Part shown: positions 1,891-28,900 of the stretch, one piece after another
Position numbering within the stretch: position 1 is the first letter of the stretch
Layout of the letters: each line of letters opens with the position of its first letter
Origin: Limnoperna fortunei
Taxonomy: Eukaryota > Mollusca > Bivalvia > Mytilida > Modiolidae
Length of the DNA stretch: 64,000 nucleotides
Assembly (NCBI GenBank): GCA_944474755.1
Contig: OX104113.1
Coordinates: 17,795,563-17,859,562, forward strand
Direction: 5' to 3'
Translations under genes and position numbers: made by a program
Notes under the pieces: generated by a model
Seen by the model: the letters and a program-made list of their open reading frames with translations, nothing else
Told to the model about the DNA's origin: nothing
Database searches by the model: none

Positions 1891-2104
1891 TTATGACAAT
1901 CAAAATAGGTGTAGTTTTACCAACATCTAAGTCTTACCTAGCAGCAAATACCATAAGATCACATGTCACACTCAACTCTTTTTTAATGATTCCATCTTTG
2001 TCCCATTTCATATCTACTTTAAGTAGTTCTTGTTGACACTTCTTTAAATGGCGCACAGTTTTCTACAAGAAATTTGTACATAAATAATGTAATTTTTGTT
2101 GCAG

Positions 2105-2166
2105 ATACTGACTTGATCAAGCAGACTATTAGCCCAGCTGAAGGCAAGAATGATTATAGTTCTTAA
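2105..2166 (+). CDS. possible last exon of an unidentified plus-strand gene
   Basis: A good acceptor (TTTTTGTTGCAG, ending at 2104) is followed by a 20-codon open stretch ending in TAA at 2164-2166. With two leading bases it encodes DTDLIKQTISPAEGKNDYSS (first codon completed from the previous exon). The mix of charged and small residues looks like a coding C-terminus rather than random AT-rich sequence. Upstream exons would lie beyond the satellite, outside the window. No family can be named and no clear polyadenylation signal was found, so the call rests only on the acceptor and frame. Confidence 0.35.
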
Positions 2167-2329
2167 ACAAAAACCCAGATTTTATAATGAAGCAATGTCA
2201 TACATGTATTTTCCACATATAAATTTGTATAGAATCAAAATGTGATCATAACAATACAAAATGTGATCATAACAAATGTAAATACTAGAAAAACTGTGAG
2301 CAATGCTCATTTTTTAATACTCACTACTT

Positions 2330-3986
2330 CCCAATTATGTAGTCCATGTTTTGCTATGGGAAACCCCAAATATCATTCAGATTAAAATGTAAAATCTAAG
2401 GTGCACAATGACAATATGTTACAAAGATTCTGTGAAAGTTTAAGTTCCATGCTGTGATGTCGATGGAATTGTGGATTAGAGACAGGGACCCTATAAGTTC
2501 ATAATTTGCTATGGGAAACCCCAACTAGAGTAAAAACACCTGTGAGCAATGCTCACCATTGATACCCCCCGCTTCACAATTACTTTGAAAATTCAGGTGT
2601 TCTTAATTATGAAATTGAAACTTTATCTTGTTAAACGTGAAGGCGAAATTGCAGATAATACATGTAACCCTCCCCAATCCCCCAAAGAATGGCATCCCTA
2701 TGTCAATGACAAAGTCCATGTTTTTCTATGGCAAACCTCCAATAATATTCTGATAAAAATGTTTAATATCCAATGCACAATGGCAATATGTGACCAAGAT
2801 TCTGTATAAGTTTCAACAAATTCCATTCAGTGGTGTAGGAGGAATTGTAAATAAAAGATGGGTATCCCATTATGTCCATTACAAACTCCATGTTTTTCTA
2901 TGGGAAACCCCAAATATCATTCCGATCAAAATGTTAAATATCTCCTGCACAATGGCACTATGTGACATGGATTCTGTGTAAGTTTCAACAAATTCCATTC
3001 AGTGGTGTAGGAATGAGTTGCACATAAGAGATGGGTATCCCTTATGTCCATGACAAAGTCCATGTTTTTCTATGGGAAATCCCAAATATCATTCCAATCG
3101 AAATGTTATATATCTAGTGCACAGTGGCAATATGTGACAACATTCTGTGTAAGTTTCATCAAATTCCATTTATTGGTGTAGGAGGAGTCGCACATAAGAA
3201 ATGGGTATCCCCTTTTGTCAATGACAGTCCATGTTTTTCTATGGGAAACCCCAAATATCATTCCGATCAAAATAATAAATATCTCCTGCACAATGGCACT
3301 ATGTGACAAGGATTCTGTGTAAGTTTCAACAAATTCCATTCAGTGGTGTAGGAGGAGTTGCACATAAGACATGAGGACCCCCTTAGGTCAATGACAATGT
3401 CCATGTTTTTCTATGGGAAACCCCAAATATCGATCCGATCAAAATGTTTAATATCTCCTGCACAATGGCACTATGTGACAAGGATGCTGTGTAAGTTTCT
3501 TTAAATTCCATTCAGTGGTGTAGGAGGAGTTGCACATAAGAGATGAGGTCCCCCTTAGGTCAATGAAAATGTCCATGTTTTTCTATGGGAAACCCCAAAT
3601 ATCGATCCGATCAAAATGTTTAATATCTCCTGCACAATGGCACTATGTAACAAGCATTCTGTGTAAGTTTCATTAAATTCCATTCAGTGGTGTAGGAGGA
3701 GTTGCACATAAGAGATAGGGACCCCCTTAGGTCAATGACAAAGTCCATGTTTTTCTATGGGAAACCCCAAATATCATTCCGATCAAAATGTTAAATATCT
3801 CCTGCACAATGGCACTATGAGACAAAGATTCTGTGTAAGTTTCATCAAATTCCTTTCAGTGGTGTAGGAGGAGTTGCAAATAATAGAAAGTGTAACGGAC
3901 GGACGGACGGAAGGACGGACGGAAGGACGGATGGACGGACACCATGAACACTATATACCCCCCGCTTTTCAAGCGGGGGGTATAAA
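2330..3986 (+). mobile_element. pearl-like non-autonomous element with 170-bp tandem core
   Basis: About nine tandem copies of a roughly 170-bp core run from 2340 to 3885, each with CCATGTTTTTCTATGGGAAA, ATCATTCCGATCAAAATG and ATTCAGTGGTGTAGGAGGAG. They are followed by a GGAC/GGAA microsatellite (3896-3940) and a terminal hairpin with arms ATACCCCCCGCTT and AAGCGGGGGGTAT (about 3955-3983). The order tandem core, ACGG-type microsatellite, short 3' region matches the pearl elements described in bivalves, thought to be non-autonomous Helitron relatives. Open frames inside the core are by-products of the repeat. Family assignment is from architecture, not alignment. Confidence 0.75.
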
Positions 3987-4331
3987 TATCATTCTGATCA
4001 AAAGGGTAAAATCAGACACAAAATTGCACTTTGTGACAAAGATTCTGTGAAAATTTAATTAAAGTCCATGCAGTCTATGTTATACTATGTGCAACATCAC
4101 AAATAATTCTGATCAAAATGTAAAATATAAGGTTCATAAAGGCATTTTTGTGTGACAAAGCTTCTATAAAGTTGAAATAAATTTCATGCATTGGTGTAGG
4201 TGTAGGGAGGAGATGGGATACACCTAAGTGTAATGGATGGATGGACAGACCTTCCTCATAATACAAGTAGTATTTTGTATTATTATACCTTTCAAGTGGC
4301 AGGTATAATAATATAAAATACTACTTGACTT
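3987..4331 (+). mobile_element. older copy of the same repeat with a long 3' hairpin
   Basis: Two decayed cores (ATTCTGATCAAAA, TGACAAAGATTCTGTGAAA, GCATTGGTGTAGG) are followed by a short GGAT/GGAC run (4229-4250). A near-perfect hairpin at about 4264-4329 closes it: the left arm starts CAAGTAGTATTTTGTATTAT and the right arm ends AATATAAAATACTACTTG, around a loop containing TTCAAGTGGC. It has the same layout as the element to its left but is more diverged. Confidence 0.6.
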
Positions 4332-4535
4332 ATGAGAAAGATGTGTCAAAATACTTCACATTGAATTAAGTATTCACACAAAGTGAAGGAAAGCTTAGAA
4401 TGGGCACATAATAATGGGATCAGCCTTGTAAATATATATCTTAAGTCACATAAATAAAAACATTTATATACATGTGAACATCCAAAAAAAGACAATTTTT
4501 AATCCCAATAATGATAATACATGACCATGAAGTAG

Positions 4536-4667
4536 TTATGTTTCTTTACTGCTTACAAAATATGTTTCTTTATTATTGCTTGCTAACAATAATTTGTATT
4601 CTGAAGACTTTAAAGTATTCACGTTTAGATAATAAATCTCTGCAGCAGAATCAATAACCAGTGTCAA
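4536..4667 (-). CDS. possible terminal exon of the ankyrin/GH20-like gene
   Basis: An acceptor CTGTTTTACCTGTTGACAG ends at 4668 and is followed by 43 open codons in the phase required by exon 20 (phase 0), stopping with TAA at 4536-4538. The peptide begins LTLVIDSAAEIYYLNVNTL. If real, the protein ends at 823 residues. The tail is low-complexity and I do not recognise it as a GH20 C-terminal helix, so the true last exon may instead lie further left, in or beyond the repeats. Confidence 0.25.
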   Translation of the reverse strand: MTLVIDSAAEIYYLNVNTLKSSEYKLLLASNNKETYFVSSKET

Positions 4668-4854
4668 CTGTCAACAGGTAAAACAGGGGAGATAAACCAA
4701 GCACAAACCTCACAATTACATACAGGACATTAAATCCCTAAAATCTGACGTAAACACAAATAATCAAAAGGATATAAATTACTTAGAAAGTCACAAACAA
4801 ATTTAAATGGAGGAGTCAAACCAGTTAAAATGGATCCCCTCATTAATATTATAC

Positions 4855-4961
4855 CTGTATTGCTTCAGGTGACAAATGTTCCATTGGTACCGAGTCAGGA
4901 TTAAATAAAAACTGAAATAATGTGGAACCATGTTCATCTGGTAACTTCTGAACATCGCTAG
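4855..4961 (-). CDS. ankyrin/GH20-like gene, exon 20
   Basis: The acceptor TTATTTCAG precedes and CAG|GTATAA follows. It encodes a segment starting SDVQKLPDEHGSTLFQF and ending EHLSPEAIQ, beyond the barrel. It enters in phase 1 and leaves in phase 0, so a further exon is needed. Confidence 0.8.
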
Positions 4962-7900
4962 CTGAAATAAATTAGTAACATCAAAATATCTAACAATCTA
5001 CAGAATTAATTTGATGGTTTGTTTTGAACTCTTCAGATATATAGCTCAATACAGCCCTCATAAAAAAAAACTATGGAAACATTTAAATGATGTGTATTGA
5101 AAATAAACAAATGTGACCTATTTACTTGGTTTTGTTTGTATTTGTCACAACTCTTTGGTACATTTTATGTATGCCACTCTTTCTCATTTGATTAATATCA
5201 TTTTTATCCTCTAATACATTGGAGATTTTAATCAACAAAAATCAAGTAACAAAAATGTTAAAAACAAGTTTAATTGATTTTTTTAGTGTTGTTTAAATGG
5301 TGGTTTTAAGCCAATTTCAGCAATTTTCAGACATGGCATCTTTTTTTTCTGGGAGCAAAAGTTGGAGTACCCAGTGAGAACACACAACAAGCAGCAGGAC
5401 TTCATCCCATAAAGTCGAAACCCCATTGTTTATATGATGGCTACCTAGACCACTCTGCCATGGAGGCAGAAAAGTCTACTTGAATATATGTATGTTATAC
5501 AAACCCTTTTGACCTCTAGAGCAGCGGACAAGATATGTTTCAGCTCTTCCTAGTTCCACTATCAAATGACCAACAGTGTTTGAGGTGTCATGAAAGATAT
5601 GACGATTTAGAAGTTCTCCTAAGTTGCCATATAAATATTCCTGTTGATACATAAAACAAAAATAAGTCAGCAACTGTTTTATGCAGTAAAAACTACAGTG
5701 GGGTTTAGTGTAGTCAATTTTAAATGATATTGATTTATTCCGTCACATTTCAAATATAACACTCCACTAATGAATTAATTTCATAAATATATTTTTTAAA
5801 CATTCGTTAAATTAGAAGTATGCTCTTCTGTTATGTCCAACTCAAAGAATCTGACCTGAAAATCATTGTTTTTTTTCTACATTAGACCCAAGAGTCATTA
5901 CCTGGTTTTAGATTTGCTTTCATATTTATACACAAAAAAACCTCAAACAAATATACTACCATAAAAAGCCATGTATATCTTGTCCTCATCCCTTTCTTGG
6001 ACCAGAAAATTGCAGAATATTTTTTAAATGCATGTACTATCCACACAAACAAGTTTCCCAAAACCTCTCAAGATGAAGACATCAGAGTCTGACTTGGCCA
6101 TGCTTTTTAAAAATTTTTACTGTACTAATACAAGTTTTATTTTAATCCCTCAAAGATTGCAATCAAAACATCGATCTTCAATAACTTGTGGTTACGTAAC
6201 GATGTCTTTGCATTACATGCAAAAAAGGTTAGACATCCGCTATTTTTGTATCTGTTTAAATTTTTATTCGTCCTTTACAATTACTATCATATTAGTAAAA
6301 ATTAATATCCATACAACTATACATATGGAAGTTTAAAAAGATATCCTGTTATAATATTGCATTATAATACAGCATTTAACACGACAACAAAATGGGGACC
6401 ACAGTGACAAAAATCAATGGGACAATAAAAACCTCTACCAAGTTAGTTTTTACATATCATCTGTATCTATAAAGTTATCAAATCTAAATGAGCTTACCTG
6501 TTATTATTATTATATTGTTCAATGTAATTTTTTTAATACTTTGTTTTTAATCTCATTTATCATTGTATTGGTAAATCAAATCTACTTCATTTTATCTACT
6601 GGTTTCTGAGAGATGCAAATGTAACATGTTCATAAAGATAAACAGTTGAGGATGTATTACCACTGATGGAAAAAGCTCCTATATCTGTTCAAACTAATAA
6701 AAGCTTAATTAGAAGCCAATGTCACTCCCATGGTTAACAGATGAACTTCAAAACAGTTCAATCAATGTTAAAATGAAATAGATATTGTATGCATTCCATG
6801 CTTTTTAGCTAAAAATCTCAACAATGTTTAATTTGTGAGGATACTCACCTGATGACAGTCTGAGTTCCATGACAGTCCAGCCAGTACTAGAAAACCAGGC
6901 CAAGCAAATGGCTGATGGGTCAGGTGACCTTTACCTGACCAGTTACAAACAACTACACCTAAAGCTCCATGGGCATCCCCACATTTCACTGCAGTGAAGA
7001 TGTTATTAATAGCTGCCTCTGGACATCCTGCTAAACTGGATAAAAATGAACACCAAATAAAAATCATTGTAATAATAGGATAAACTGACTCCTATATTGC
7101 CAACATTTATTCCCCAAAATGTCTTTCCCTTCTAATGATTAACTATTAAATATTAAAAAAATTGACCGCACATTACAAATAAGTGCTGGAATTATTTTTT
7201 TTCACAAAAATGTAAACCTCACCCCTTTCAATTACCTTTAAGTGTTGTTTTTTCATGGTGATTTATTTTTCGCTATATTCCCGGTAAAACTTGGAACAAG
7301 AAAATAATAAAGCTCAAAATATTAGGATAAACAATAGATTATTCATTCTGATTAAGGAGCACAAAAATTACATCATACATTACGCCAAAATAATCTCACA
7401 CAATTTGTTAACAAAAACGCTAAATTTTCCCCATGTGAAAAAAACACTTATATGGTACTGTCATAACAAATTTGCAGTATTTAAAAAACAACTTAAAAGC
7501 ACCCCAAAAATCAGAAAATCTTTTAAAATCTGGACATTTGTTCCTATGAACATGCAAAAGAAAGGTTTTATATCATGCAAAATTACATACATATTTTTCT
7601 TGGTCTCAAAAGACATAAATATTTTTACTACAAAGTTGTCTAATCATTACTAACCTATTCCAGGCAGATGTTCCTGGACACATGATGTAACTCACCCTAT
7701 ATACTAACCTATTCCAGGCAGATGTTCCTGGACACATGATGTAACTCACCCTATATACTAACCTATTCCAGGCAGATGTTCCTGGACACATGATGTAACT
7801 CACCCTATATACTAACCTATTCCAGGCAGATGTTCCTGGACACATGATGTAACTCACCCTATATACTAACCTATTCCAGGCAGATGTTCCTGGACACATG

Positions 7901-10900
7901 ATGTAACTCACCCTATATACTAACCTATTCCAGGCAGATGTTCCTGGACACATGATGTAACTCACCCTATATACTAACCTATTCCAGGCAGATGTTCCTG
8001 GACACATGATGTAACTCACCCTATATACTAACCTATTCCAGGCAGATGTTCCTGGACACATGATGTAACTCACCCTATATACTAACCTATTCCAGGCAGA
8101 TGTTCCTGGACACATGATGTAACTCACCCTATATACTAACCTATTCCAGGCAGATGTTCCTGGACACATGATGTAACTCACCCTATATACTAACCTATTC
8201 CAGGCAGATGTTCCTGGACACATGATGTAACTCACCCTATATACTAACCTATTCCAGGCAGATGTTCCTGGACACATGATGTAACTCACCCTATATACTA
8301 ACCTATTCCAGGCAGATGTTCCTGGACACATGATGTAACTCACCCTATATACTAACCTATTCCAGGCAGATGTTCCTGGACACATGATGTAACTCACCCT
8401 ATATACTAACCTATTCCAGGCAGATGTTCCTGGACACATGATGTAACTCACCCTATATACTAACCTATTCCAGGCAGATGTTCCTGGACACATGATGTAA
8501 CTCACCCTATATACTAACCTATTCCAGGCAGATGTTCCTGGACACATGATGTAACTCACCCTATATACTAACCTATTCCAGGCAGATGTTCCTGGACACA
8601 TGATGTAACTCACCCTATATACTAACCTATTCCAGGCAGATGTTCCTGGACACATGATGTAACTCACCCTATATACTAACCTATTCCAGGCAGATGTTCC
8701 TGGACACATGATGTAACTCACCCTATATACTAACCTATTCCAGGCAGATGTTCCTGGACACATGATGTAACTCACCCTATATACTAACCTATTCCAGGCA
8801 GATGTTCCTGGACACATGATGTAACTCACCCTATATACTAACCTATTCCAGGCAGATGTTCCTGGACACATGATGTAACTCACCCTATATACTAACCTAT
8901 TCCAGGCAGATGTTCCTGGACACATGATGTAACTCACCCTATATACTAACCTATTCCAGGCAGATGTTCCTGGACACATGATGTAACTCACCCTATATAC
9001 TAACCTATTCCAGGCAGATGTTCCTGGACACATGATGTAACTCACCCTATATACTAACCTATTCCAGGCAGATGTTCCTGGACACATGATGTAACTCACC
9101 CTATATACTAACCTATTCCAGGCAGATGTTCCTGGACACATGATGTAACTCACCCTATATACTAACCTATTCCAGGCAGATGTTCCTGGACACATGATGT
9201 AACTCACCCTATATACTAACCTATTCCAGGCAGATGTTCCTGGACACATGATGTAACTCACCCTATATACTAACCTATTCCAGGCAGATGTTCCTGGACA
9301 CATGATGTAACTCACCCTATATACTAACCTATTCCAGGCAGATGTTCCTGGACACATGATGTAACTCACCCTATATACTAACCTATTCCAGGCAGATGTT
9401 CCTGGACACATGATGTAACTCACCCTATATACTAACCTATTCCAGGCAGATGTTCCTGGACACATGATGTAACTCACCCTATATACTAACCTATTCCAGG
9501 CAGATGTTCCTGGACACATGATGTAACTCACCCTATATACTAACCTATTCCAGGCAGATGTTCCTGGACACATGATGTAACTCACCCTATATACTAACCT
9601 ATTCCAGGCAGATGTTCCTGGACACATGATGTAACTCACCCTATATACTAACCTATTCCAGACAGATGTTCCTGGACACATGATGTAACTCACCCTATAT
9701 ACTAACCTATTCCAGGCAGATGTTCCTGGACACATGATGTAACTCACCCTATATACTAACCTATTCCAGGCAGATGTTCCTGGACACATGATGTAACTCA
9801 CCCTATATACTAACCTATTCCAGGCAGATGTTCCTGGACACATGATGTAACTCACCCTATATACTAACCTATTCCAGGCAGATGTTCCTGGACACATGAT
9901 GTAACTCACCCTATATACTAACCTATTCCAGGCAGATGTTCCTGGACACATGATGTAACTCACCCTATATACTAACCTATTCCAGACAGATGTTCCTGGA
10001 CACATGATGTAACTCACCCTATATACTAACCTATTCCAGGCAGATGTTCCTGGACACATGATGTAACTCACCCTGTAAAAGTAGCAAAACAGTGTATAAA
10101 TTAGTATACTAATAATATACTAATCTATTTTCCAAAGACACAGACAAGCATGCTTAATCACACTTAGTGTACGAATTGCAGAACAGTATAAGACTGTTGC
10201 AAGTTTAACATTATTAAAATAAGTTCAATCATGTCAAATCAACTCCTAATTAAACACAAGGAAATAGTACCTTCCCTGATAACTCCTAATTAAACACAAG
10301 GAAATAGTACCTTCACTGTACAATTTTAACATATAATCAGTAAAAAATCTATAGAAATGTAGACAGTTGTATCAAATGGCTTTCAGTGTATTGTATAGGA
10401 AACAATTTTATATATTGCTTGTTCTTGGTTCTGAATCCTACTTGTTACAATTATTTGGAAAATAGTTTAAACCAATAGCTTTTTATATGGACTGAGGAGA
10501 CATAAAAGACAAATAATCAAATAAGAAATGTTTATACTTACCCATGATTAGATAATGGTGAACAAAACCTTTGGAAATCATAATCTGCCTACAAATTGAG
10601 ATGAAAAATTCTAAAGCAGTTTATATAATCATTACAATGGTGACGGAGATGATTGATTATAGCCCAATTAACATTATTTTAGCTACCTACATTTAAAACT
10701 AGAACAAGTTAACCATTTTTAATAATCTATTACATTCAGAGTTCATTGACAGTCTCCCACAATTTTATTTGCAAGTCAGAAGGACTGAGGGAGAAAAAGG
10801 TTGTTTAATGGCTAGCAAGCAAATATTTAAGTTAAAAGTATGTGCAATAGTTTAAATGTCACTGGTTTTACCTCAACAAGAAAAGAATTTAACCAAATGA

Positions 10901-13900
10901 TCTTCACTCCTTGTGAGAACACTTCAAAGTACACCACAGGGCTGGTTAGATTGTGTAAGGGGTAGTCCATTACACCACAAGGGTGGTCAAATTGTGTATG
11001 GGCTATTCTAAATAGTTACTGGTCATTAATATGGAAGGATGGGATGGAATTAGACCCACAAAAGTTTTTCTTATACTGTTTCTTCACTATCAAATGGGCT
11101 TAAGAATAATGACAACCCAAAACTCATTTAAAAACAGTACTATCTTTAAAAAAGATATTCGACGCATTTAACTCTTAGAGATGTATGTAAAGTACAATGG
11201 AAACTGAACAAACAACAACAATAAGAAAAAAAACACTTTAAAAAATGTATCAAACGAAAGAAAGAGACAAGAAACAGTGACGTTTTCTCTCATTAATGTG
11301 TGTGTGTGTGGGTGTGTGTGTGTGTGTGTGGGGGGGGGTTGTTAAATAATTAACGTGCTGCGAACTGTATCCAATTAAAATAAGGCTAAGAAGGTTGCTG
11401 CATTGATGTATTAATCATTGACTTTAAAAAAAGGGTATTACCAAAAGCAGACTTTGCAATTAGAGTTCCGTCTCCTGTCTGCGCGTGAATGACGACGGAC
11501 GCAAAGAAAGAAGATATATAGACATTAATGGCTTTAAAAATCATAGAGCTAACAATAAACATATTGAAATATCCTCAATGAAAAGCTATTTCATAAATTG
11601 AAGACCACAAGGGTAAATAAAAGAAATATAAACTTTCTATGTTTTTTTCTTTAGATGTTGCATATATATTTACTGGAAAAATTAGTTAACATTTTAAAAC
11701 TTCAAAACAGCACATATTTTTTTTAAAAGAAATTTCATAAGCAAATATGTACTTACATGCATCAAGTATTATTCATTACAGTTTGCGATTTTATTAATTT
11801 AACTATCTTTTAAAATGGGAACTTCAAAGTAAAACATGTACGCTATTCGGCCAAAAATAGGGGGGAGATAAATAATTGCAACGGAACCATCAGCTAATTT
11901 TATCCTCAATTCTATGTGTATAGTAAACAATACATGTCTTATCGAACCACTGCGTCTCATGTAAGTTATTTGGTGTTCCGATAATTACCAATGACTTAAT
12001 TACCTTTGTGTAGAATCATTTTTATGACAATAATTTCACGATAGAGAGAGAGAGATTGCGTGTGAAGGCGGTAAAATCAAGAAAATATGGCATATATATA
12101 TACCAGCGTAATGATTGTTTATAGATAAGATGGTCAACAAAGCAAATAATAATTCTACCACAGACGAAATGCACAAAAAATACACGACGCATAGTTTTAT
12201 TTAATTCTTTCAGTTCCAAATGGCATTCTTTGGCATAAAATTATTTTCTAAAGTTTAATTACAACTACCAATTTTTTTTAAAACACCAGTCTGTTGGAAT
12301 AATAATTGAGAAATGCAAATAGGGCTACTTTTCACTGACAGTAAAATATAGTAGATTATTCGAACGCAGAGATTTTTTACTATTTTTGTCCAATCAGAAT
12401 GCAAGTTTGTCTTCAATTATAGTAAGTTACCATGGGTAAGCGTCTTTTAGTTCAAAGGTCACAATTCGAAAATATACCGACTGTGTCGGAAAAAAACCCT
12501 TAATGTCTAAATACAGTCGAACTTCAGTAGCTCGAACTCGGATGGCTCGAACACCCGGGATTTCTCGAACACCTATCCAAGTACGGAACTTTCCCCCTAT
12601 ATAATCAATGTTAATATTACTTCGATTTCTCGAACACCGATTTCTCGAAAACTCGAACTAAATCAGCAGTCCCAATACTAAAAATTCATTGAAAAAACCA
12701 TGAATAACTCGAACTAAAATTATTGACAGCTTGCATGACTAATTGGTCATAAAAGGTGTAAAGATCGAAGCCATACCTGTAAAATGCCAAGCTTGATCTT
12801 TAATGATATAATCCCTAATAATTAACCTAATTTTATCAATTTGTATTTATGTACTCCTTTGTAGGCAAATTTGTTGAAGTAGGTTTTAATTAATTTTAAA
12901 TGTGCGCCAATAAATTGCTATCAAATCCGAATCGAGGCCATTGACATATTTGTTTAATTGTATTTGGTTTAATTGTATTTGGTTTAAACATCTCTACTGT
13001 TATGTAACTCATGCTTTCTCCACTCCCCCTGAAATCCCAACTGATAAATAATGAACACAATAGTTCACAGTCTACTGCATTGCCAAGTGCACAGTATTTT
13101 TTAAAGATGGGGCCTCAGTGGCCGAGTGGTTAAGGTAGTTCGTCTACTGATGATCTCGCGGTCTGTCAACACTGAGGTTGCGGGTTCGAGTCTCACTGCG
13201 ACTGAGGTTGCGGGTTCGAGTCTCACTGCGGGCAGGGTGTACCCGACTCCAATCTTAATTGACAAGGATTGCCAGTTTTCCTACCGAAGGTCGGGGGTTC
13301 TCTCCGGGTACTCCGGCTTCCTCCCCCAATAAAAACTGGACGCCATGAGATAGCTGAAAAATTGCTTTATTTGTTTTATGATGTTTAATGATGTTTAACG
13401 CCACGTTAAACATCATTAAACAAATAAACAAACAATATTTTTTAAAGATAACTTATGCTCCAAATTACTGTAAACATACTGTACCTGAATACCATATTCA
13501 CTAATGACAACATGAGGTGGTAGATGCATAAGGAGTTCTGAATCCATGCCATGCAGAGGGTAACCACAAATATTAAGAATCTGATCCCGACGAATTGGTA
13601 AAAGTTTAACAGCATCTAATACTTCCAGCAATCCATTATCTGTCTCGATTACAAAGCTACTCAGTCGTGGACCAAGACTTATAAATCTGTTAAAAAATAT
13701 AAATAAATATATATATCTATATTTATTTCAAGTTAATTTTCGTAATTCAGTGTCCAAATATTAATTATTTTTACCTTGAGCAATGTTTGGTAATACACTG
13801 CAAACATATATTTTGCTGTACAAAAAAGGTATACAAATAAATACCAAATAAAGTCTGCTATCCTTGTCCTCATGCACTTCCAACATAAAGCATTCTGTTC

Positions 13901-16900
13901 TGGATCATAACAAATACAATATTTGTTCATGATGTCATGAAACCACCAGAGTATTTTAACCCAGAAATTTGCCAAACATACTTTTTTCAACCTTTTTCTG
14001 AATAAAATGTTTGTTATCGTTTCAGGATAAAAACAATATTTGTACATATAACTACATTGTTTGAACACATATATTTTATTTGCACTTACTGTGACAGGCA
14101 AGATATTTTTTCATTGAATCTAAGTTTTGTTAAAACACATTACAAGTTTTTTGGTTTTGATCCTTTTTTCCATCTTGTTTGTTGGACAGTGTTATTAGAA
14201 AGAGAGCATGCATGGTCTTTTTCTGACAAAATTAGGCTAAAATAAGTAAAAAATTGAAGATACCAGAATAGAAGTAGATGATGGACAGACTATGAGGGCA
14301 ATAGATGATGGACAGCCTATAATAGGAAATGGATGACAGACAGATTAAAAGGACAATATATGATAGACAGACTATGAGGGCAATAGATGATTGACAGAGT
14401 ATGAGGGCAATAGATGATGGACAGACTAATAGGTTCTTTCATATGTTTTTGGGAAAGACTGGTTGATCTGTCACGAGTGATAGAAATTTTATGTCTTTTC
14501 GCAAGTGGAGCGCCACGGAACTCATCTGTGTGCGTGAGCTCATCTGTGCTGGGTCATCTGTATCAGAAATCTGCCATTTACGGAAGAATGATTGTAATAG
14601 GTGATTAGACTAGGAGGGCAATAGATGATGGACAGACTATGAAGGCATTAGATGATGGACAGCCTATGAGGGCAATAGATGATGGACAGACTATGAGGGC
14701 AATAGATGATGGACAGACTATGAAGGCAATAGATGATCGACAGACTATGAGGGCAATAGATTTTTTTTATTTTTTATTTTTTTAAGAGGAAAAAAAAATA
14801 AAAAAATAAAAAAATAAATAAATAAAAAATAAAAAAAAATTAAAAATATAAAATGTCTTACTAACAACCATACATACATGTATTTCCTCTCTCACTCACC
14901 ATACATTCCATGTTTTTGCTGACTTGCCTTACCAACTATTAATACAACTATAGGTAAATTATAAAGTTATATAATTAATACATATTATGTTCAATAGATG
15001 CAATAGGGCAATAGATGATGGACAGACTATGAGTGCAATAGATGATGGACAGACTATGAGGGCAATAGATGGACAGACTATGAAGGCATTAGATGAATGA
15101 CAGACTATGATATCAATAGATGATGGACAGACTACAAGGCAATAGATGATGGACAGACTATGAGGGCAATAGATGATGGACAGACTATGAAGGCAATAGA
15201 TGATGGACAGACTATGAGGGCAATAGATGATGGACAGACTATGAGGGCAATAGATGATGGACAGACTATGAAGGCAAAAAATGATGGACAGACTATGAGG
15301 GTAAAAGATGATGGACAGACTATGAGAGCAATAGATGATGAACAGACTATGAGGGCAATAGATGATGGACAGAATATGGTGGCAATAGATGATGGACAGA
15401 CTATGAGTGCAATAGATGATGGACAGACTATGAGGGCAATAGATGGACAGACTATGAAGGCATTAGATGAATGACAGACTATGAGGGTAAAAGATGATGG
15501 ACAGACTATGAGAGCAATAGATGATGTACAGACTAAGAGAGCAATAGATGATGGACAGACTATAAGGGCAATAGATGATGGACAGACTATGAAGGCACTA
15601 GATGATGGACAGACTATGAGGGCAATAGATGATCTGTAAGGTACTCTAACTTACTGTGTATCTGAGAAACATGTCAAAAATTCTTCAACAGTAGAATACA
15701 AATCATCAATATCATCAAACTGAATTTGTGGTGCCACCTCTATCACAGGGACTAGCTGAATACCAACACCAGTACAATACTCTACCAGATCTAGTAATTC
15801 ACTAAAATATTTAAAAATATTCATACTGAGCATAAACATTTTATTGATATGAGAAAAAAAAAAGAAACCTACAAGGAAATTGTGCATGATGAGCAGAAGA
15901 TAAATCATTTACACAGCTTGAATTATTTTGTATCTCCTTACTCTACTGAATTTCACTTTAAACATTTTGTTTCTAATGATAACTCAAACCTTGCAATGAA
16001 TGTTTAAACCTTTATGAATTAACGTGTAAAATATAATGGATAACACAAATACTTGTAAAATACTAGCTACAATAATGTAGCTCCTTTTTTTTCTTCTTAT
16101 GGACGGAGCTACAGAGGTCCCTTGTAAAATACTAGCTACAATAATGTAGCTCCTTTTTTTTTTTTTGATGGACGGAGATACAGAGGTCCCATTACTCGTA
16201 ATGGAGCAAAAACACTCTTGGGATTTACACATATTTTCCCCTATTTAACCTCTGTATTTATTTAATAAATATGTTTTTCTTTCCTCCGCCATTCATCTGA
16301 CATGTCTACAATGTCTAATTAAATAATTTTAACACTTTTTCGTAATCATGGCATTGTTGACATAACTAGATACCAGTGAGATGGTACCCATCTCTGTGGG
16401 CCCTTGAGGTCAAAGTCAAAGGTCATCAACCATGGTATGCGACACATCGCCTTGATATTATCTACCCACAATCCAAATATCAAAAGCCTACCTCAAAAGA
16501 TAAAGAAGTTACAACTGGGACATGAATTAGAAAGCAATAATGTGACCTTAAGGTCAAAGTTCAAGGTCAAAGGTTATCAACCACGGTATGCGACACATCG
16601 CCTTGATATTATCTACCTACATTCCAAATATCAAAAGCCTACCTCAAAAGATAAAAAAGTTACAGCCCGGACATGAATTTGTCATACAGAAAGCAATAAT
16701 GTGACCTTAAGGTCAAAGTTCAAGGTCAAAGGTTATCAACTACGGTATGCGACACATCGCCTTGATATTGTCTACCTACATTCCAAATATCAAAAGCCTA
16801 CCTCAAAAGATTAAAAAGTTACAGCCCGGACATGAATTTGTCATACAGAAAGCAATAATGTGACCTCAAGGTCAAAGTTCAAGGTCAAAGGTTATCAACC

Positions 16901-19900
16901 ACAGTATGCGACACATTGCCTTGATATTATCTACCTACATTCCAAATATCAAAAGCCTACCTCAAAAGATAAAAAAGTTACAGCCCAGACACAATTAGTT
17001 CGGAAGGACGGCGCAACGCACAGACGGACGGACAGACTGATCACTATAAGGCGTCTGCCACAAAGTGGCCGGGCCCTAATTAAAATTGTGGAGTGTAAAA
17101 TTTCTGAATCGTATCGGTAAAATTTGTAATAAGGGGACATAATCATAATGCAATGAATACAGCTGAAATCATCCAGAATGATATTTTTTTACCAAATAGA
17201 TTCCGATTTTATCAAAATTATGCACTTCCGGAATTCATATTTTGTCAACAATTCCATGATTACGAATAAAGTGATAAAACTAATGCATACGATGTTGTGG
17301 AAATATCAGTTAAACTGCAAATACATAAAAAAGTATGTAGCAAACTAAGGAAACAGTTTAATTCCTTATAATATGAATAAAACCCCCGGGTGTGTATCAC
17401 TCCCGTGCTGCTCCATTACGAGTAATGGGACTGCTTTGTAGCTCCGTGCATTGAAAAAAAAAAGGAGCTACATTATTGTAGCTAGTAAGATACCACTAAC
17501 ATATGTACACTGTGATGGTTAACACTAATACACATAAATGTAAACTGTAATGAAAACACTCATACCTGTATCTTTTTGGATAAAACTTATACATGTACCT
17601 TTTAGAATATGCTATCTGCCATGTAGCACCTGGTAACTTCATAAATCTACAAAATAACTGTAGCTGCAAGAAAGATATTGTATTAAAAAAATTAGCAAAT
17701 ACTACAGCATTCTGTAAAATATCAGAACAAAAGTACAAACCAGACACACAATATTTCTAAATAGAAATTATCTGAATAGCTTAACATAATGAAAGCCATA
17801 TTGTTGAGATCGCTCTTAGAATAGTTTCCCAAACAGAAACATTCAATTAAATCAACATACAATAGATCAGTTTTCACTTTGTGTGACCTCAGATACATTG
17901 TTAGATATGCTTTCTGCTGTCTTATGATTTAATTGTTTTGATATAACCCAAACTGGGATAATATTTAAATTATTTCACTTCACACATCATGCCAAAAATT
18001 CCATATTATTGAAAAATTTTTTTTTAAATAAGACGACTTACTAAGTTTATTTTGAGTCCAGCTAAATTGTTGATCATTTTCTGTAAGGTTTCCTAGAATA
18101 AAAGAAATGAATATTAGTATATTAATCTATTTTTAAAAAAATCTAATTTTGAACATTTCCACAGACAAGCATGTTTCACCACACTACATTTTCCAGGCTA
18201 CAAATTGCCAACCAGTATAAGACAGTTGTAAGTTTGAAATTATTAGACCATTGTTTAAGTTACATCTTTTTAATAGATGCCTTCATATACAAAAATATGT
18301 TACTTGATAACTGACAATATATATATTTATTATACCTTACTTAAAATTTTATATTAAAAACGAACACTTATTACTAACAATACTTTTATTTCCCTAAAGG
18401 AGAACCTTTTTAATAGTTCTTTGATTACATTTCCAGTAGTTTATCATACTTTTAGATGCATGGCCTACTGAAATTGATTGGAATTTCACTGATTACTTTT
18501 CAAGTGATTTTCCATACAACTTCAACCAAATTCATGATAACTTGACTTATATATACTGTAATATTTTTAGTATATTATTCAAAATATATTCAGAATAATA
18601 AAACAGTTAATGAACAGCACCTCTAGATAAAGCAATTTTATTTGTTTTTCAATACTGTACTATTTCTGCCTGCTGCCACATCAGGGGAAATAATAGTCAG
18701 TGTTTCGAGACCAATAAAATATAGCCCTTAAGCAACTTTAATATCTGTACAATAAATAAGTTTTTTTAAGGAACTAAAAGAATACTTGATCAGGGGCAAA
18801 GAAGGAACACTATGCCTACCACATATTTAACATATCTGTTTCACATACATGTACAGGAGAAAAGATGCCACGTTACTTATAATTTTGCAAGTGCCTTCCA
18901 AATTCTCTAGACTGTCGGACTCAAATTCACAACCCCAGTGTTGACATGCTGGTGATCAATAAGAGATGGCCAAGTATTGAGACCACTCTACCACCAAGGC
19001 CTATAATCCCAAATAAATCAATTAATCAATTATTACATAGTTGGGTAACCTCCCTTGGGAACAATCCAGGAGCACTCCTCTGTAGTGTAAGTCTGGCCAA
19101 TCATCAACCTGAAGATAAAAAATCAAATTACTAGTAAATCTAAACATGAAATGTACCATGATCTAACATGATCAATGAAACGTTTATATAACAATAACTT
19201 TACTAACATGAACATATTTGTCTATTGGACTTTCTTTAGATTTTTTTTTTGAGGAAATAAAGACATGAATGAATGAATGAATCTACTCCTGAACAAAAAA
19301 TGATAAACAAAAATGTCTGATAAAAATTAATAGAAAGTATGGGAAATGTGTCTCCTTTTCCACACCCAAAATTAATTAATTACAACTCAAACATCATATG
19401 CTAGCATACATTTGTATTTAATGTGTTACAGTACAGTAAAACCTTTTAAAACCGGCCCCTGAATAAACCGGTTCCCTGTCGATTCCGGTCGAAAATTTAG
19501 GTCCCATTTTTTCCCCTTAAAGTCCTTCGTTAATTTAACCTGTATAAACCGGACCTCGTGTATTCCGAATTACGACCATTATGTCCAGTCCCAATACACA
19601 TTTCCCAATTAAAATTTACCTGTTTAAACCGAATAATGTACATGACCAGATGTATTTATTTAATCAATTGATAGCTATCAAAACAAGGTAATTTACATGA
19701 CTTGTGAGGTCTCCTTGAGGGCGTATTTAATTAATGAACCAAAGCGTACAACAAAGGTGAATTGTTTTCAAAACCATTAATTTAATTTTTCATAATTTGC
19801 ATTATTTTCAAAAGTGAATCCTATTAATGAACCGATGTTTTAGATAGATGTGATTCGTTTTCAAAACCAATAATTTCAAAAGTAAAAATGGAGAGCGGAA

Positions 19901-22900
19901 ATTTGACGATGAAGTAACATGTCGTCGCCAACGATCTCGTAAAGAATTAATTCTGAGGATATCTAACGCCACATAGCATACATGATAAACTTTGCAAACA
20001 GTAAAGATTATCGTTACCTGTAGTTTCATTTGCTTATGCAATCACTAACAGAGGACACTATCGTGCGAAGAAAAACGGAGAAAAGACAAGGAACCCCTGA
20101 CATGTATTTTGCGGTAAACTATTGAATAATTATTATTCTCGTATATATCAATAAAATATCTGTGTGTATTATAAGTTTTATTTCATATAATACATTTTAT
20201 TACATTTCTTTCGTGTATTCCGTTGCATATAAAACGAGTGTGCATCAAAGGTGTCCGTAGTCTTTTAAACCCCCCCCTTTTTTATCTTTACTTCCGGTGA
20301 TTTTCCAAATCCGAACAAACCGGTCCACTGTCCAAACCGGCCATATTGTTCGGTCCCATAGGTAGCCGGTTTATACAGGTTTTACTGTATATAGAAAGTC
20401 TATACTTCAGACACCCTAATGTAACTTGATTAAGGAATATTGGCCCAGCTTACCAACAATGACATGAGTTGATACAAAGTAGATAACTTACCAACAATGC
20501 TGGTATAACTATTTCTCCATTGTCCTGATACAATGACATGAGTTGATACAAAGTAGATAACTTTCCAACAATGCTGGTATAACTATTTCTCCATTGTCCT
20601 GATACAACAACATGAGTTGATACAAAGTAGATAACTTACCAACAATGCTGGTATAACTATTTCTCCATTGTCCTGATACAATGACATGAGTTGATACAAA
20701 GTAGATAACTTACCAACAATGCTGGTATAACTATTTCTCCATTATCCTGATACAGTGACATGAGTTGATACAATGTGGAAAACTTACCAACAATTCAGTT
20801 ATAACGATTTCTTGTATTAACCTGATACAACAACATGAGTTGATACAATGTAGATAACTTACCAACAATGCTGGTATAACTATTTCTCCATTATTCTGAT
20901 ACAATGACATGAGTTGATACAAAGTAGATAACTTACTAACAATGCTGGTATAACTATTTCTCCATTCTCCTGATACAATGACATAAGTTGATACAAAGTA
21001 GATAACTTACCAACAATGCTGGTATAACTTTTTCTCCATAATCCTGATACAATGACATGAGTTGATACAAAGTAGATAACTTACCAACAATGCTGGTATA
21101 ACTATTTCTCCATAATCCTGATACAATGACATGAGTTGATACAAAGTAGATAACTTACCAACAATGCTGGTATAACTATTTCTCCATAATCCTGATACAA
21201 TGACATGAGTTGATACAAAGTAGATAACTTACCAACAATGCTGGTATAACTATTTCTCCATAATCCTGATACAATGACATGAGTTGATACAAAGTAGATA
21301 ACTTACCAACAATGCTGGTATAACTATTTCTCCATTATCCTGATACAGTGACATGAGTTGATACAAAGTAGATAACTTACCAACAATGCTGGTATAACTA
21401 TTTCTCCATAATCCTGATACAATGACATGAGTTGATACAAAGTAGATAACTTTCCAACAATGCTGGTATAACTATTTCTCCATAATCCTGATACAATGAC
21501 ATGAGTTGATACAAAGTAGATAACTTACCAACAATGCTGGTATAACTATTTCTCCATAATCCTGATACAATGACATGAGTTGATACAAAGTAGATAACTT
21601 TCCAACAATGCTGGTATAACTATTTCTCCATAATCCTGATACAATGACACGAGTTGATACAAAGTAGATAACTTACCAACAATGCTGGTATAACTATTTC
21701 TCCATTATCCTGATACAGTGACATGAGTTGATACAAAGTAGATAACTTACCAACAATGCTGGTATAACTATTTCTCCATAATCCTGATACAATGACATGA
21801 GTTGATACAAAGTAGATAACTTACCAACAATGCTGGTATAACTATTTCACCATTATCCTGATACAGTGACATGAGTTGATACAAAGTAGATAACTTACCA
21901 ACAATGCTGGTATAACTATTTCTCCATTGTCCTGATACAATGACATGAGTTGATACAAAGTAGATAACTTACCAACAATGCTGGTATAACTATTTCTCCA
22001 TTGTCCTGATACAATGACATGAGTTGATACAAAGTAGATAACTTACCAACAATGCTGGTATAACTATTTCTCCATTATCCTGATACAATGACATGAGTTG
22101 ATACAAAGTAGATAACTTACCAACAATGCTGGTATAACTATTTCTCCATTGTCCTGATACAATGACATGAGTTGATACAATGTAGATATTGCACAATGCA
22201 AACTGCTGTAATCACTACACAACATCCTAATCTGAAATTAAAATACAATTATCGATGACTTATTGTAAAAATATATTCTAATTTAAAGGTTAACATGGAC
22301 CAGCACTGTCGTGCTGGCTCAGAAAACAGGAAGTAGATAACGGACTGATCTGGAAAGCGGAGGCACGGTACAACTCATCATGCTAAAGCTGTGTACCAAA
22401 TTTGAAATCAATCCCTTTAGTAGAAGCCATGAAATCTGTTACAAAAGTTTGCACCACACTGACAGACGGACAAGATGATTGCAATATAGGCCTCTCTTTT
22501 TATGAGTGGGGGTTATAATTATTTTAAGTTCAGTGACATTTTTATATTTTGGAAAATTTTAACAAAATGCCAAATAATGAATTTATTAATATAAATATTG
22601 TTTCATGTAATGTGAAATGAGGGAACTAGTTATTATGATTTCAACTGGAATTTGAATTTAATAATAATGTTGAGTACTGAAGTCCAAGAGTCAAAAGCAA
22701 TCAGATTTAGGTTTGCATGATCTTTGACCTAATGACCTGTACCCGTGATATAGTAAGTTTTCATAATTTGTGATAAATGATCTGTCCTTGGGAAATAGAA
22801 AATGTGTTCAACCTTGACCAACTGACCTATAATTGGAATAAAGAAAGTGTGCATAAACTTTGACCTACTGACCTGCCCCTGTGATATAGTAAGTTTGTAT

Positions 22901-25900
22901 GTCCCTTGAGCAGGACACAGCTTACTGTTGACATGGCACTGTAGATGAGGTACTCTGGTGTCACTAAGGCTACTAAGTATATTAATCTTCATGTCTAAGC
23001 CTATAGACGTAAAACTGGACTTCCTCACTTTCATTATTTTCATTATCTGTATTGAATCTGAAAACGATTAAATAGAACAAAATTTTTTTTTTAAGGCAAT
23101 GACTCCTATAAGATGCCATCAGACAATTTCTGAAAAATTAAATAATTTATAGGCTTTGTCCTTTAGGTTAATTCAGTAATTTACAGTTTTAATCTAGCTG
23201 TAATAGCCCTAAATTTATAATGCAAAAAATGACTTTTTTGCCAAAATTTGTCTTTAAAAGGCAATCTGACATTTTTGGACTAAGTAATGATTTAAAGTAC
23301 ACTCTAGCTGTTATAGTTTTTAGGTGACTTTTCAAGAAGTCATTATACCTTCAGACTTATAGGAACTTCTGAAGAGCTTAATGTGCTGATCAATTTGAGG
23401 TAAATGTTTTTCACTATAGCTAATATAATTTTTGAGATGTGGACCAAAAAGGTGGTCTATTTTTAATAACAGTGGCCATCTTTGTCCATCAACACCCTGG
23501 TTAAAAATTTGAAACTAGGTACAACAAGTGTGGACACAGAAAAACGTCTCGCCTGCATTCCGCATCAGTAACGAAAATAAATTTCGTCATAAGCATTACG
23601 TAAATAGCATTAAATATCAGCAGCGGCCTGTATACAAAATATTGTCACCATACCCTGCATAGTTACAGGGGAACAGCCGTAACCCAAAAATTTTAACGTA
23701 GTCACTGGACCGTGAAATTGAGGTCAAGGTCAGGTGGAACCTACCAGACAGTCATGTACTATTCATCAGCAACCTATACACCAAATATTGTCATCCTACC
23801 ATGCGTAGTTACAGAGGAACTGTCGTAACCCCAAATCTTTAACGTAGTCGCTGGACCGTGAAATTGAGGTCAAGGTCAGGTGACACCTACCAGACAGTCA
23901 TGTACTAGTCATCAGCAACCTATACACCAAAATATTGTCATCCTACCATGTGTAGTTACAGAGGAACTGTCGTAACCCAAAAACTTTAACGTAGTCGCTG
24001 GACCGTGAAATTGAGGTCAAGGTCAGGTGACACCTACCAGACAGTCATGTACTAGTCATCAGCAACCTATACACCAAATATTGTCATCCTACCATGCGTA
24101 GTTACAGAGGAACTGTCGTAACCCAAAAACTTTAACGTAGTCGCTGGACCGTGAGATTGAGGTCAAGGTCAGGTGACACCTACCAGACAGTCATGTACTA
24201 GTCATCAGCAACCTATACACCAAATATTGTCATCCTACCATGTGTAGTTACAGAGGAACTGTCGTAACCCAAAAACTTTAACGTAGTCGCTGGACCGTGA
24301 AATTGAGGTCAAGGTCAGGTGACACCTACCAGACAGTCATGTACTAGTCATCAGCAACCTATACACCAAATATTGTCATCCTACCATGCGTAGTTACAGA
24401 GGAACTGTCGTAACCCAAAAACTTTAACGTAGTCGCTGGACCGTGAAATTGAGGTCAAGGTCAGGTGACAGGTGACTGACTGGCAAGTACTCATCATAAG
24501 CTACCTCTGAACCAAATTTGATGGACCTAGGGCTTGGGCTTACAAAGATATGAAGCAAGATGTCAAGTGTTTACGCCGCCGCCGCCGCCGCCGCCGGATT
24601 CCCATACATATGTCTCGCCTCCAGCGACTTTCGTCGCAGGCGAGACAAAAACAACAAGTGTGGACTGTGAGCACGCTCACAAAGCGATACCCCAGCTTTG
24701 CTTTCAAGTCCAATTATCTCCCCTTAATGATATCCAAGGTCAATTAAAATCCTTCATGGATATCTACATAAAATGTACTTACTTTAAGCTAAGTTTCATT
24801 AAATTTCATCAAGCGGTTCAGGAGGAGTTGTGCTTACAAGGGATGTGGACAGATGGACAGACAGACAGGGTGATTCCTATTTACCCCCAAACAAGTTTGC
24901 GGGTTGTATAAAGATTGTGGCCAAGTTGAAAAAAATTGGCTAACTGGTTTCAGAGATGATTTTTGACAAAGTTTACGATGAATTGTGAATGACCAATGAA
25001 TGCCAAGTGATGGCATAAGTTATAATGCAAAACATATTTCTTCATTAATTTTTCCTGTTCCAACTATAAACTAGGATAAATTTTAATAATCAAAGTGCAG
25101 ACTGCACCGAAGGAAAGGTTGCTTGGCAATTATGAAATGAGATTCCTGCCTCATATTGACGGGCAATAAAACAAACCAATGTAAAATAAATCAGGTATAT
25201 TTAGAAACATATTAGATATAAATTTAAAAGACTAGAAAAAAACTTTGCAATCCTCATAATACTGATAGCCCCAGCTACCCTATGTCTTGAATGGCAATGC
25301 CCAGGGCTCCAAAAATTGTTTTGCTCAAACTGTAAATAATCAGGTGCACAATTCCACCATATGACAAAGGATTCTGCAAAAGTTTCATCAAATCCCACTC
25401 AGTGGTGCAAGTAGTTGTAGATAAGAGATAGGTATTCCCTACATCAAAGAATGGCAAGTCAATGTTTGCTATGGAAAATCCTAAATATCATTCCAATCAA
25501 AATATAAAATATCAGGTGTACAATAGCACTATGTGACAAAGAGTCCATCAAAATCCATTCAGTGAAACAATACAATTGAAGATGCTTTTGTCATAAATTT
25601 TATAAATACAGTAAAACTTCGAACTCCGATGGCTCGAACACCACCGATTTCTCCAACTGTTTTTAAAGTCCCGACATTTATTTCTATATATGTTAGTACA
25701 AAAAACCCTGGTTTTTCGAACATCGATTTCTCGAAAACTCGAACTCATTTATAGGTCCATTTGATAGTAAACTCATGTAAGTCACCATCAATAACTCGAA
25801 CTAAAATTATAAGCGTCAGTGCGAAGCAATTAACTTCAGTTACAAAGGACGTTGATAACAGAAGCCATAACAATTAATACAGGTATGTCAATTAAAAAAT

Positions 25901-28900
25901 AATAGATAATAATTATGTCATGACTGGTGATTAGTTTGAAAAGGCAAATAGACATTAATTGTTTCTTTAATTGAAAATATGAAATTTACCAAGCGGATTA
26001 TCAAATCAACGAAAATATTCCAATTAAAAATCATTTACGACTTTTGTTGACAACTGTGGTTAAATTGATATTTTAAAAAACCAAATATTAAAGCTAAAAT
26101 AATTTCTGAAAAATGTGATGGCAATAAATATTGTTGAAATTATTTACTTAATTTAACTGTGATGGATATACCGATGGATGTACAGGGTTTTTGCGCAGTA
26201 GCGGAAGTAAATAGTAAGCGATGTAGCAATTTCAAATTTCACAAACTATTACACCTAAAATTACTTTATTCGTGTCAAAATTCGTGAAATAAACATCTAC
26301 ATACATTCAAAACAAATTTTAGTTCCCAAAAACAACCATACCGTGTGTAGGAAAATTAACGAGCAACTTATAAACAAAAATCAGTCATGGTACGGAACAG
26401 ATATATTTTCAGAAGTTGTTCAACTTCGGTGGCTCGAACAACCGATAACTCGAACTATTTTTGGCGACCCCAGCGAGTTCAAGTTATCGAAGTTCTACTG
26501 TATATTAATAAATAAGACAAAATTGCTGCTGCCAATTTCAGACATAAAAATCGCACCTGTTATATGGTTGGAATATAACTTGCATCAAATACATGTACAT
26601 ACATATAAATGTCACCTATAAATGTAAGTGATGGCATAAGCTTCTAAAATATTCAAAACTAAAATAATTTATTTCTGTAATACTCTAGGGCTTCAGTTGC
26701 CGGGTGATAAATGTAGTATTCATCTACTATTGATCGATTGCCTGTCATCACTTGTTTGAATCTTACAGTGGCCAGGGTGTACTCAACTTCAATCTTGATT
26801 GACAATTATTAAAAGACTCCTACAATCTGCTTTCTCCTTCAATAAAAACAGGACGCCCAAATATAGTTGAAAAATTGCTGAAAGTGGTATTAAACAATTA
26901 CAACACAGGGATCTGTGCAAGACAATTTACATGTGCTTTCGAATGATACTGGGTCGATTTTGTTATATCGGTTCAAACACACTATAACAAGATCGACCCA
27001 GTATTATTCAAAAGCGCATGTAAATCACTTTTTATAAATCCCCCGGATTAAAACAAACAAAAACGACTGTACAAGGTTTTCAAATGGACAATAATCGCTT
27101 GCTCCAAGTTAACCCCATTCTAATTTTGGTCAAAATTAACCTTGGAAAATCGCTCTATCAAATTAAAAAACAGCATTTCAAAATGCTGAACAAATGTAGA
27201 AAAATAATTGCTGATTTCAATTTGCACCTTTTTGGATCTACATAAGGAACATAAGATCGACCATACGCGCTAAGAGGTTTTATTTGTCAATCAAAAAACT
27301 TCTGCTAAAACACACTGACTTGATCACATCTTCCTTTGTTTTAAGGAACACACAAAATGAAGAAAAATATATTGTTCTGACTTTCATTTAATTAGATACT
27401 TAAAGCATAAAAATGCAACATCATCTGAAACGACGGCAATTTTGTGAGGTAAACATACATGGAAAATTGGTATGTTTTTTGGCTTGTTACGATGGGTGGT
27501 GACCAATTTCGACTTGTGTAACGAGAAATATTAATGGTTCAGCATGAATTACCAATTATAAAAATTAGTCAAAAGGAGCGGAAACAAATTGTGTCAGCTT
27601 TTACTACGGTATGGAATAATGTAGCGACATAGTGAGTGCAATTGATCACCGATGTCGAATAATCCACTTACTATTCTTGTGTCACAAAGACCAAAATATC
27701 TTTTTCAATACATTTTTATTAGTTAGAAATTGTTATAATTTTAAATATACTTGTATTTTATTTACAAAACTTCTACATGCCATTCTCCCAACCTTAAAAA
27801 ATTTTATAGATGGCACCACTCTGCAAATCTGTACATGGACAAAGCACCCACTTTTGTGTTGATTTTCATTTAATTAAATATGTAAAAAATAGAATGCAAA
27901 ACCATATGAAACGACGACCACACGATGGCACACAATAATCATTTAGTCACTTCAATCATAATAACGTCGTCAAATATTATTAGACTGGTGCCACTGTCAG
28001 TACTACATTTGTCGGTTCAGTGAACAGCTATCGCGAGGACTGCCAAATATCGCGCTGATTTCCAAAACCAAAATGTGTAACGAGTCTGTCTCTTGCGGAT
28101 GAACATGGAATATTAGTTTAAATCGTAATAGTAGTTATCAATTATACAGTAAATGAGACATAATATGAAAGGACATGTATAGTAAAGTTGTTCAAGATAA
28201 ATGTGGTGCACCGATTCATGTAATTGATAGATTCCTCCAATGTGACCTATATTTTACGAGCGTATGGTTTTATTACATGCCGGTCGCAGTAGTTTCTATG
28301 TATGTTTCTACGCAACCTTCCCAAAAAACATAAACTGTTATGTAATTATAGACCTCAGTATGAAAAAAGGAACAACTATTTCAAACAGAAAAGGTATGAA
28401 AAAGAATTCATTTGTTCACGATAAGAGTAAGTTCTAGATACAATAATTGGCAAGCAGTAAAAAGAAGATATATAAATTAATACATATATACTCAAACCTC
28501 ACACCTTTTAAAAGTTTGCAAAAATAAGTATGTGAAAAATACACATAAAAGCATCCGATATAATACTGCTTACTTTCAGCTGGTCCACCTGATACATAAA
28601 CAGGCAGGTTTTGATTGATGACAAATGGTTTACTGTCTTGTTGCACAATACTCTGGGGCTGTGGCCAAAGCAAACTTAACTTCTCTTCCGTAACCACAGG
28701 ATGTGGGGGTTGTATCACATCATCAAATGATACTGTTTTCTAAAATATAATTAGAACTGTTCATTATCTGGGATTAACATGTTCCATTATAATGGTTAGA
28801 GTTAACAAGTTTATTCTTAACTGTGTTATCATAATTGTTTAGAATAGATTTCATATATGTAAGTAATTTATGTATTTGTGTATAGTTATAACTTTCATAG

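Follow-up and report, generated by a model that had tools for sequence, protein, structure and literature searches.

A 45-copy tandem array across an exon-intron boundary in a Limnoperna fortunei gene resembles amphioxus mirages in structure

Host gene and its relatives

The window, by which we mean the whole stretch of 64,000 nucleotides analyzed here, carries on its minus strand a gene modeled from protein similarity, tblastn, and alignment as encoding ankyrin repeats and a GH20-like domain (1938..39341). Eighteen exons were found; some are missing, and the C-terminus falls outside the model. Against a 920-aa protein of Mytilus edulis, 582 of 727 aligned positions are identical (80% identity). 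Relatives of the host protein, as labeled by Pfam, carry ankyrin repeats followed by a GH20-like domain. Similarity of the host gene to GH20 is present, and one relative (P0002) has PF00728; two pieces of the host model had no Pfam match, and no true match in Pfam or PDB was obtained for pieces of the GH20-like part of the window. Matches of that part to RNase HII, with E about 0.01, were taken as chance. The catalytic Asp-Glu site appears as LDET or CDET in three prokaryotic or unnamed relatives and in none of the animal proteins, in an alignment that is gappy at this point. The mollusc ankyrin and GH20-like protein seemingly lacks the Asp-Glu of its prokaryotic relatives, and it is possibly a pseudoenzyme.

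The start of a 27-nt array (15005-15655) lies 22 nt from the end of exon 15801-15655, directly after its donor, and a 55-nt array of about 34 copies (71-1888) lies just downstream of exon 2062-1938 and is not obviously exonic. Two further arrays, designated 1 and 2, span exon 3' ends and are described below.

A 45-copy array built from an exon and its donor

Array 1 (7655..10072, minus strand) consists of 45 tandem copies of a 42-nt exon followed by GTTAGTATATAG, so that the unit reads GGTGAGTTACATCATGTGTCCAGGAACATCTGCCTGGAATAG + GTTAGTATATAG. It runs from its first base at 10072 to its last exon base at 7655, and a script located 45 unit starts, every one spaced by 54 nt; the span of 2,418 nt, or 44 x 54 + 42, thus bears out the length and copy number given in a preliminary description of this locus. 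TRF reported 44.9 copies with 99% matches. Forty-two of the 45 units are identical. Units 2 and 8 have one C-to-T change in common, converting Ala to Val, and unit 45 departs from the repeat past GTTAGTA. When a 221-base query from the low-coordinate end of the array was searched against the genome of the species, all 22 matches fell inside array 1. The splice signals and open frame claimed for each unit are likewise present: GTTAGT occurs in 45 of 45 units, and the exon frame has no stops from end to end, compared with 89 stops in each of the other two frames. The arithmetic of 14 + 18n inserted residues, with a maximum of 806, is also correct.

Unit 1 (10031..10072), encoding VSYIMCPGTSAWN in phase 2-2, is the authentic exon according to the sequence and gene model, and it is single-copy in aligned relatives. 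It is preceded by the true acceptor with its T-rich tract (CTACTTTTACAG, 10073..10084) and followed by the first GTTAGT donor (10025..10030), which we infer to be the one used; 44 more copies of this donor recur every 54 nt. The gene model and protein alignment place a 47-nt exon upstream (ADYDFQRFCSPLSNHG, 10542..10588) and a 187-nt exon downstream (6849..7035, starting SLAGCPEAAINN). The exon joins fit, with ...NHG leading into VSYIMCPGTSAWN and then SLAGCPEAA..., and the acceptor TTTTACAG precedes 10072. Both edges of the 42-nt exon are in the same phase, and any copy number keeps the frame. Of the flanking introns, duplication is apparent for the donor side alone (GTTAGTA), and the internal "acceptors" of the array (GTTAGTATATAG) have no T-rich tract like the one seen at the true acceptor. 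Each unit also bears AGG/GTGAGT at the exon start, which is presumably closer to the donor consensus than the first donor GTTAGT. The first donor looks weak, and the 42-nt exon may be poorly defined.

The preliminary description had proposed inspecting the same locus in related species. At the protein level, the aligned relatives, Mytilus edulis among them, have the 42-nt segment once and lack any insert; in all, proteins of ten named molluscs have it once, as in GISYIMCPGTSAWNSLAGCPEA (Mytilus, Ostrea, Saccostrea, Tegillarca, Mizuhopecten, Mactra, Liolophura, Ruditapes, Mercenaria, and Mya). Among 93 proteins from two protein searches, one of which permitted lengths of about 520-1654 aa, none had more than one copy of the GT-x-x-W-N/T motif or the array's WNRLVY. 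An array-bearing protein was not found in the single search made for it. The 93 proteins include none from the source species, so the single copy is attested for its relatives.

A second array in the same gene

Array 2 (20456..22188, minus strand) contains 23.4 copies (TRF) of a 74-nt unit made of the last 66 nt of exon 22231-22121 plus 8 intron nt that include GTAAGT. The exon whose 3' end seeds it is an authentic 111-nt exon (22121..22231) identified by tblastn, gene model, and alignment, and the array is continuous with it. The idea that array 2 repeats a 33-nt microexon together with its acceptor and donor was rejected, because alignment with the Mercenaria protein shows one continuous 111-nt exon. 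The first donor is intact, and the unit length is not a multiple of three. A stop lies 54 nt past the first donor, and with each of donors 2-7 the frame of the 111-nt exon meets a stop after 55 codons; among donors 1-7, which were tested, the first alone yields the protein. In three later copies, GAAAGT replaces the donor.

Two arrays built alike thus sit in the host gene, of which array 1 is open and array 2 is blocked. The window has seven arrays of at least five copies (including 71-1888, just outside the modeled span); when these were placed randomly in the gene, 1.3% of trials put at least two of them across exon 3' ends.

Donor-bearing arrays across the genome

The published Limnoperna fortunei assembly is described in its report as 1.34 Gb in 309 scaffolds, the largest 115 Mb, with a GC content of 33.6-33.8% (PMC10541798). 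The genome that we searched comprises 1,335,373,924 bases in 285 contigs, with C1 at 115.44 Mb and a GC content of 33.5% in the window plus a 200-kb sample. Three copies of the donor word AGGTAAGT at spacings of 38-68 nt occur 6,257 times. Control words of equal base composition gave 2,562 (TGAATGGA), 699 (GATGAGTA), and 545 (the reverse of GATGAGTA) occurrences of the same pattern. The donor word by itself is no commoner, with 51,448 single occurrences vs 64,255 for TGAATGGA. Distinct arrays were counted by eye among the first 100 places listed per word. Within C1:0-10.23 Mb, these amount to 11 arrays for the donor word, 1 for TGAATGGA, and 2 for GATGAGTA; over the longer stretches that the first 100 places reach for the controls, TGAATGGA gave 4 arrays in 113 Mb and GATGAGTA gave 12 in about 354 Mb. 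The donor pattern is about twice as dense in the first 10 Mb of C1 as in the genome on average. Extrapolation by matches per array suggests about 690 donor arrays genome-wide vs about 100 and 84 control arrays, and the excess, extrapolated in both cases, is some 7- to 8-fold by matches per array and about 30-fold by listed-stretch density. Looser counts among the first 100 places gave no excess for words within 300 nt (donor, 8 of 77 loci; control, 10 of 74) and a modest one within 100 nt (8 of 79 vs 3 of 89); the donor excess appears at three or more copies with 38-68 nt spacing. Donor-bearing arrays seem to be in excess genome-wide, though with little or no excess in the looser count. In its exact form, the donor word AGGTAAGT picks up neither of the window arrays (AGGTTAGT and TGGTAAGT), so the scan is incomplete and does not serve as a recovery test.

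Nine of the 11 donor arrays of C1 begin in an exon-like frame that is open to the first donor, with the frame judged by eye; no exon was seen at the other two (L029 and L035). Significant database matches were obtained for five of the nine. Four of these match IFT172 (PDB, E 1.6e-11), STK11 (8e-14), DUF547 (6.9e-10), and DMAP1 (7.7e-8). Searches with L031, L032, L036, and L037 returned no significant match; L032 may be FN3 and L036 may be ASNSD1. The fifth matched array, at a kinase exon 6 kb from the STK11-matching array, has GCN2 (4.4e-17) and STK11 (6.1e-17) as its best PDB matches and was taken as part of the same STK11-like gene. At C1:6.84 Mb, two exon-end plus donor arrays (L038 and L039) lie about 6 kb apart, seemingly in one STK11-like gene.

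Over C1 and the initial 1.7 Mb of C2 (about 117 Mb), the acceptor word TTTTCAGG formed 13 arrays. Three of these fall in C1:0-10.23 Mb, two of them sharing one unit, and the same stretch has 11 donor arrays. The acceptor word had 820 matches vs 2,092 for the reversed word. A single acceptor word is a weak probe. Acceptor arrays appear to be rarer than donor arrays, a direction that would fit a simple filter: copies behind an exon would be removed if the first donor is taken, and copies ahead of it would risk inclusion. One of the 13 acceptor-word arrays, with a 68-nt unit at C1:111142218-111142769, repeats TTTTCAG and GTAAGT jointly with some 43 nt between them, and it resembles an entire exon flanked by its two splice signals.

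How much the open frame means

The preliminary description placed weight on array 1 having an in-frame, open unit. We cut 20,601 units from the exon ends and adjoining introns of the 17 host-gene exons with known frame; one third were multiples of three, and 22% were both multiples of three and open. The open frame of array 1 means little because about 22% of such units are open by expectation, and the weight placed on it is not justified. One open array of two in the host gene is unremarkable. Read-through meets a stop in 9 of 11 exon-end arrays (the two window arrays and nine elsewhere), within the first unit for eight of the blocked arrays and in the second for L031. The open ones are array 1, throughout, and L038, over the 149 nt examined; two of 11 fits the 22% expected. 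Of the seven arrays with an exon frame backed by a protein match, five meet a stop.

Relation to known systems

Amphioxus mirages are described as minisatellite-like duplications of exon-intron boundaries, first reported in Adh3, with units of 10-160 nt and AG/GT signals in many copies (PMC3087553). The accounts name Adh3, the globins BflGb6 and BflGb9, TnC, and PGBD5 as mirage genes, the last two being added by the second account (PMC3087553, PMC3902484). Haplotype and somatic length variation is reported, RT-PCR suggests normal splicing despite the mirages, and the repeats are proposed as a source of new introns (PMC3087553); both reports describe splicing as undisturbed (PMC3087553, PMC3902484). 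Arrays 1 and 2 are likewise direct tandem repeats across an exon-intron boundary, their unit lengths of 54 and 74 nt lie within the described range, and their splice signals are repeated, with the donor in every unit of array 1 and with the three GAAAGT copies noted above in array 2. By structure, we file array 1 as a mirage-type minisatellite. It differs from the amphioxus examples in that its unit holds an entire 42-nt exon, in its 45 copies, and in its bivalve host, and the genome scan suggests many such arrays here. Normal splicing and length variation are features of the amphioxus mirages, whereas the mussel array is known from the sequence of one assembly. Among the results listed by searches of open-access literature, in one case 20 of 3,787, no report used the name mirage for an organism other than amphioxus. 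The class itself is known from amphioxus; new here are the mussel host and the seeming excess of donor-bearing arrays.

Rogers, Gao and Lynch reportedly described intron gain by tandem duplication of AGGT segments, and Zhuo et al. reportedly trace introns in the human genome to tandem arrays. Potato RdRp is another described case of introns gained by tandem duplication (PMC4974935). These systems and ours have in common a duplicated segment with donor and acceptor signals, but no new intron is shown here, and the arrays appear within an existing intron. Internal tandem repeats in human genes reportedly modify gene structure as well; the common feature is tandem repeats that alter exon-intron structure, and theirs lie in paralogues within segmental duplications. 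Coding VNTRs of the mucin type have an in-frame repeat unit. The mussel unit is alike in this respect, but it crosses a splice donor, and its open frame is known from DNA.

Splicing of array 1

Array 1 is quite probably a mirage-type minisatellite in which the first donor is used and the other 44 copies leave with the intron. Tandem duplication would have started at the exon 3' boundary, taking in the exon and the first intron bases with the donor, and the array would have grown into the intron by slippage or unequal exchange. In the pre-mRNA, one true acceptor would stand before 10072, with the first donor (10030) 42 nt downstream; splicing from this donor to the exon starting at 7035 would give the conserved protein. 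The remaining 44 copies would be removed with the intron, and copy number would therefore be free to change. Most likely, then, array 1 is a harmless, fast-evolving repeat.

The preliminary description had offered two mechanisms, a length-variable splicing switch and constant use of the first donor. The second is the better supported: one-copy relatives, array 2, the stops in 9 of 11 arrays, splicing in amphioxus, and internal acceptors without a T-rich tract all point to it. For the switch, or an equivalent coding VNTR in which splicing would draw on several of the 45 donors and add 18-residue repeats to the protein, there is no positive evidence. Longer products are possible on paper, given a unit length divisible by three, an array free of stops in the exon frame, and matching exon edges that keep any copy number in frame. 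We nevertheless hold such products to be very unlikely, with units from this gene's exon ends open anyway in about 22% of cases, array 2 blocked for read-through, the segment single-copy in aligned relatives, and an array-bearing protein absent from the one search made for it. Splicing of copies to each other, or skipping of copies, would involve introns of 12 + 54k nt and yield rare isoforms or new introns. Each unit has a donor and an AG, and models of intron gain by tandem duplication have been published (PMC3087553, PMC4974935). The internal AGs, however, are without a T-rich tract, and a 12-nt intron is by general knowledge too short, so at least one unit would have to go; we consider this route very unlikely too. 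Even the copy number might be an assembly artefact, in that 42 identical units of 45 make exact counting hard and haplotype differences are expected for minisatellites. This is barely credible for an assembly reported to be HiFi-based with QV 53 (PMC10541798), in which 2.4 kb should fit one read and two variant units serve as internal landmarks.

Beyond the probable use of the first donor in array 1, the same exon-end habit in other genes of the mussel genome is the interesting part. We tentatively propose that splice donors could be preferred seeds of tandem amplification genome-wide, that mirage arrays may be present at several percent of exon 3' ends, and that array 1 might be one extreme member; the cause would be a bias of mutation toward exon-intron junctions, an advantage of additional U1-binding sites where introns are long and AT-rich, or a combination of the two. 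If exon-boundary minisatellites are common in a large invertebrate genome, they would be a steady source of extra splice sites, new introns, and gene-model errors, and would make it possible to test directly whether the spliceosome, offered many identical donors, chooses the first.

Other repeats were encountered during the scan. Clusters of TGAATGGA at C1:1.537, 2.135, and 2.187 Mb, with a spacing of about 172 nt, perhaps belong to the family of the 172-nt array at 2699-3887 of the window. Among 20 sampled 10-kb stretches, two (L013 and L017) consist almost entirely of tandem satellites, with 45- and 38-nt units.
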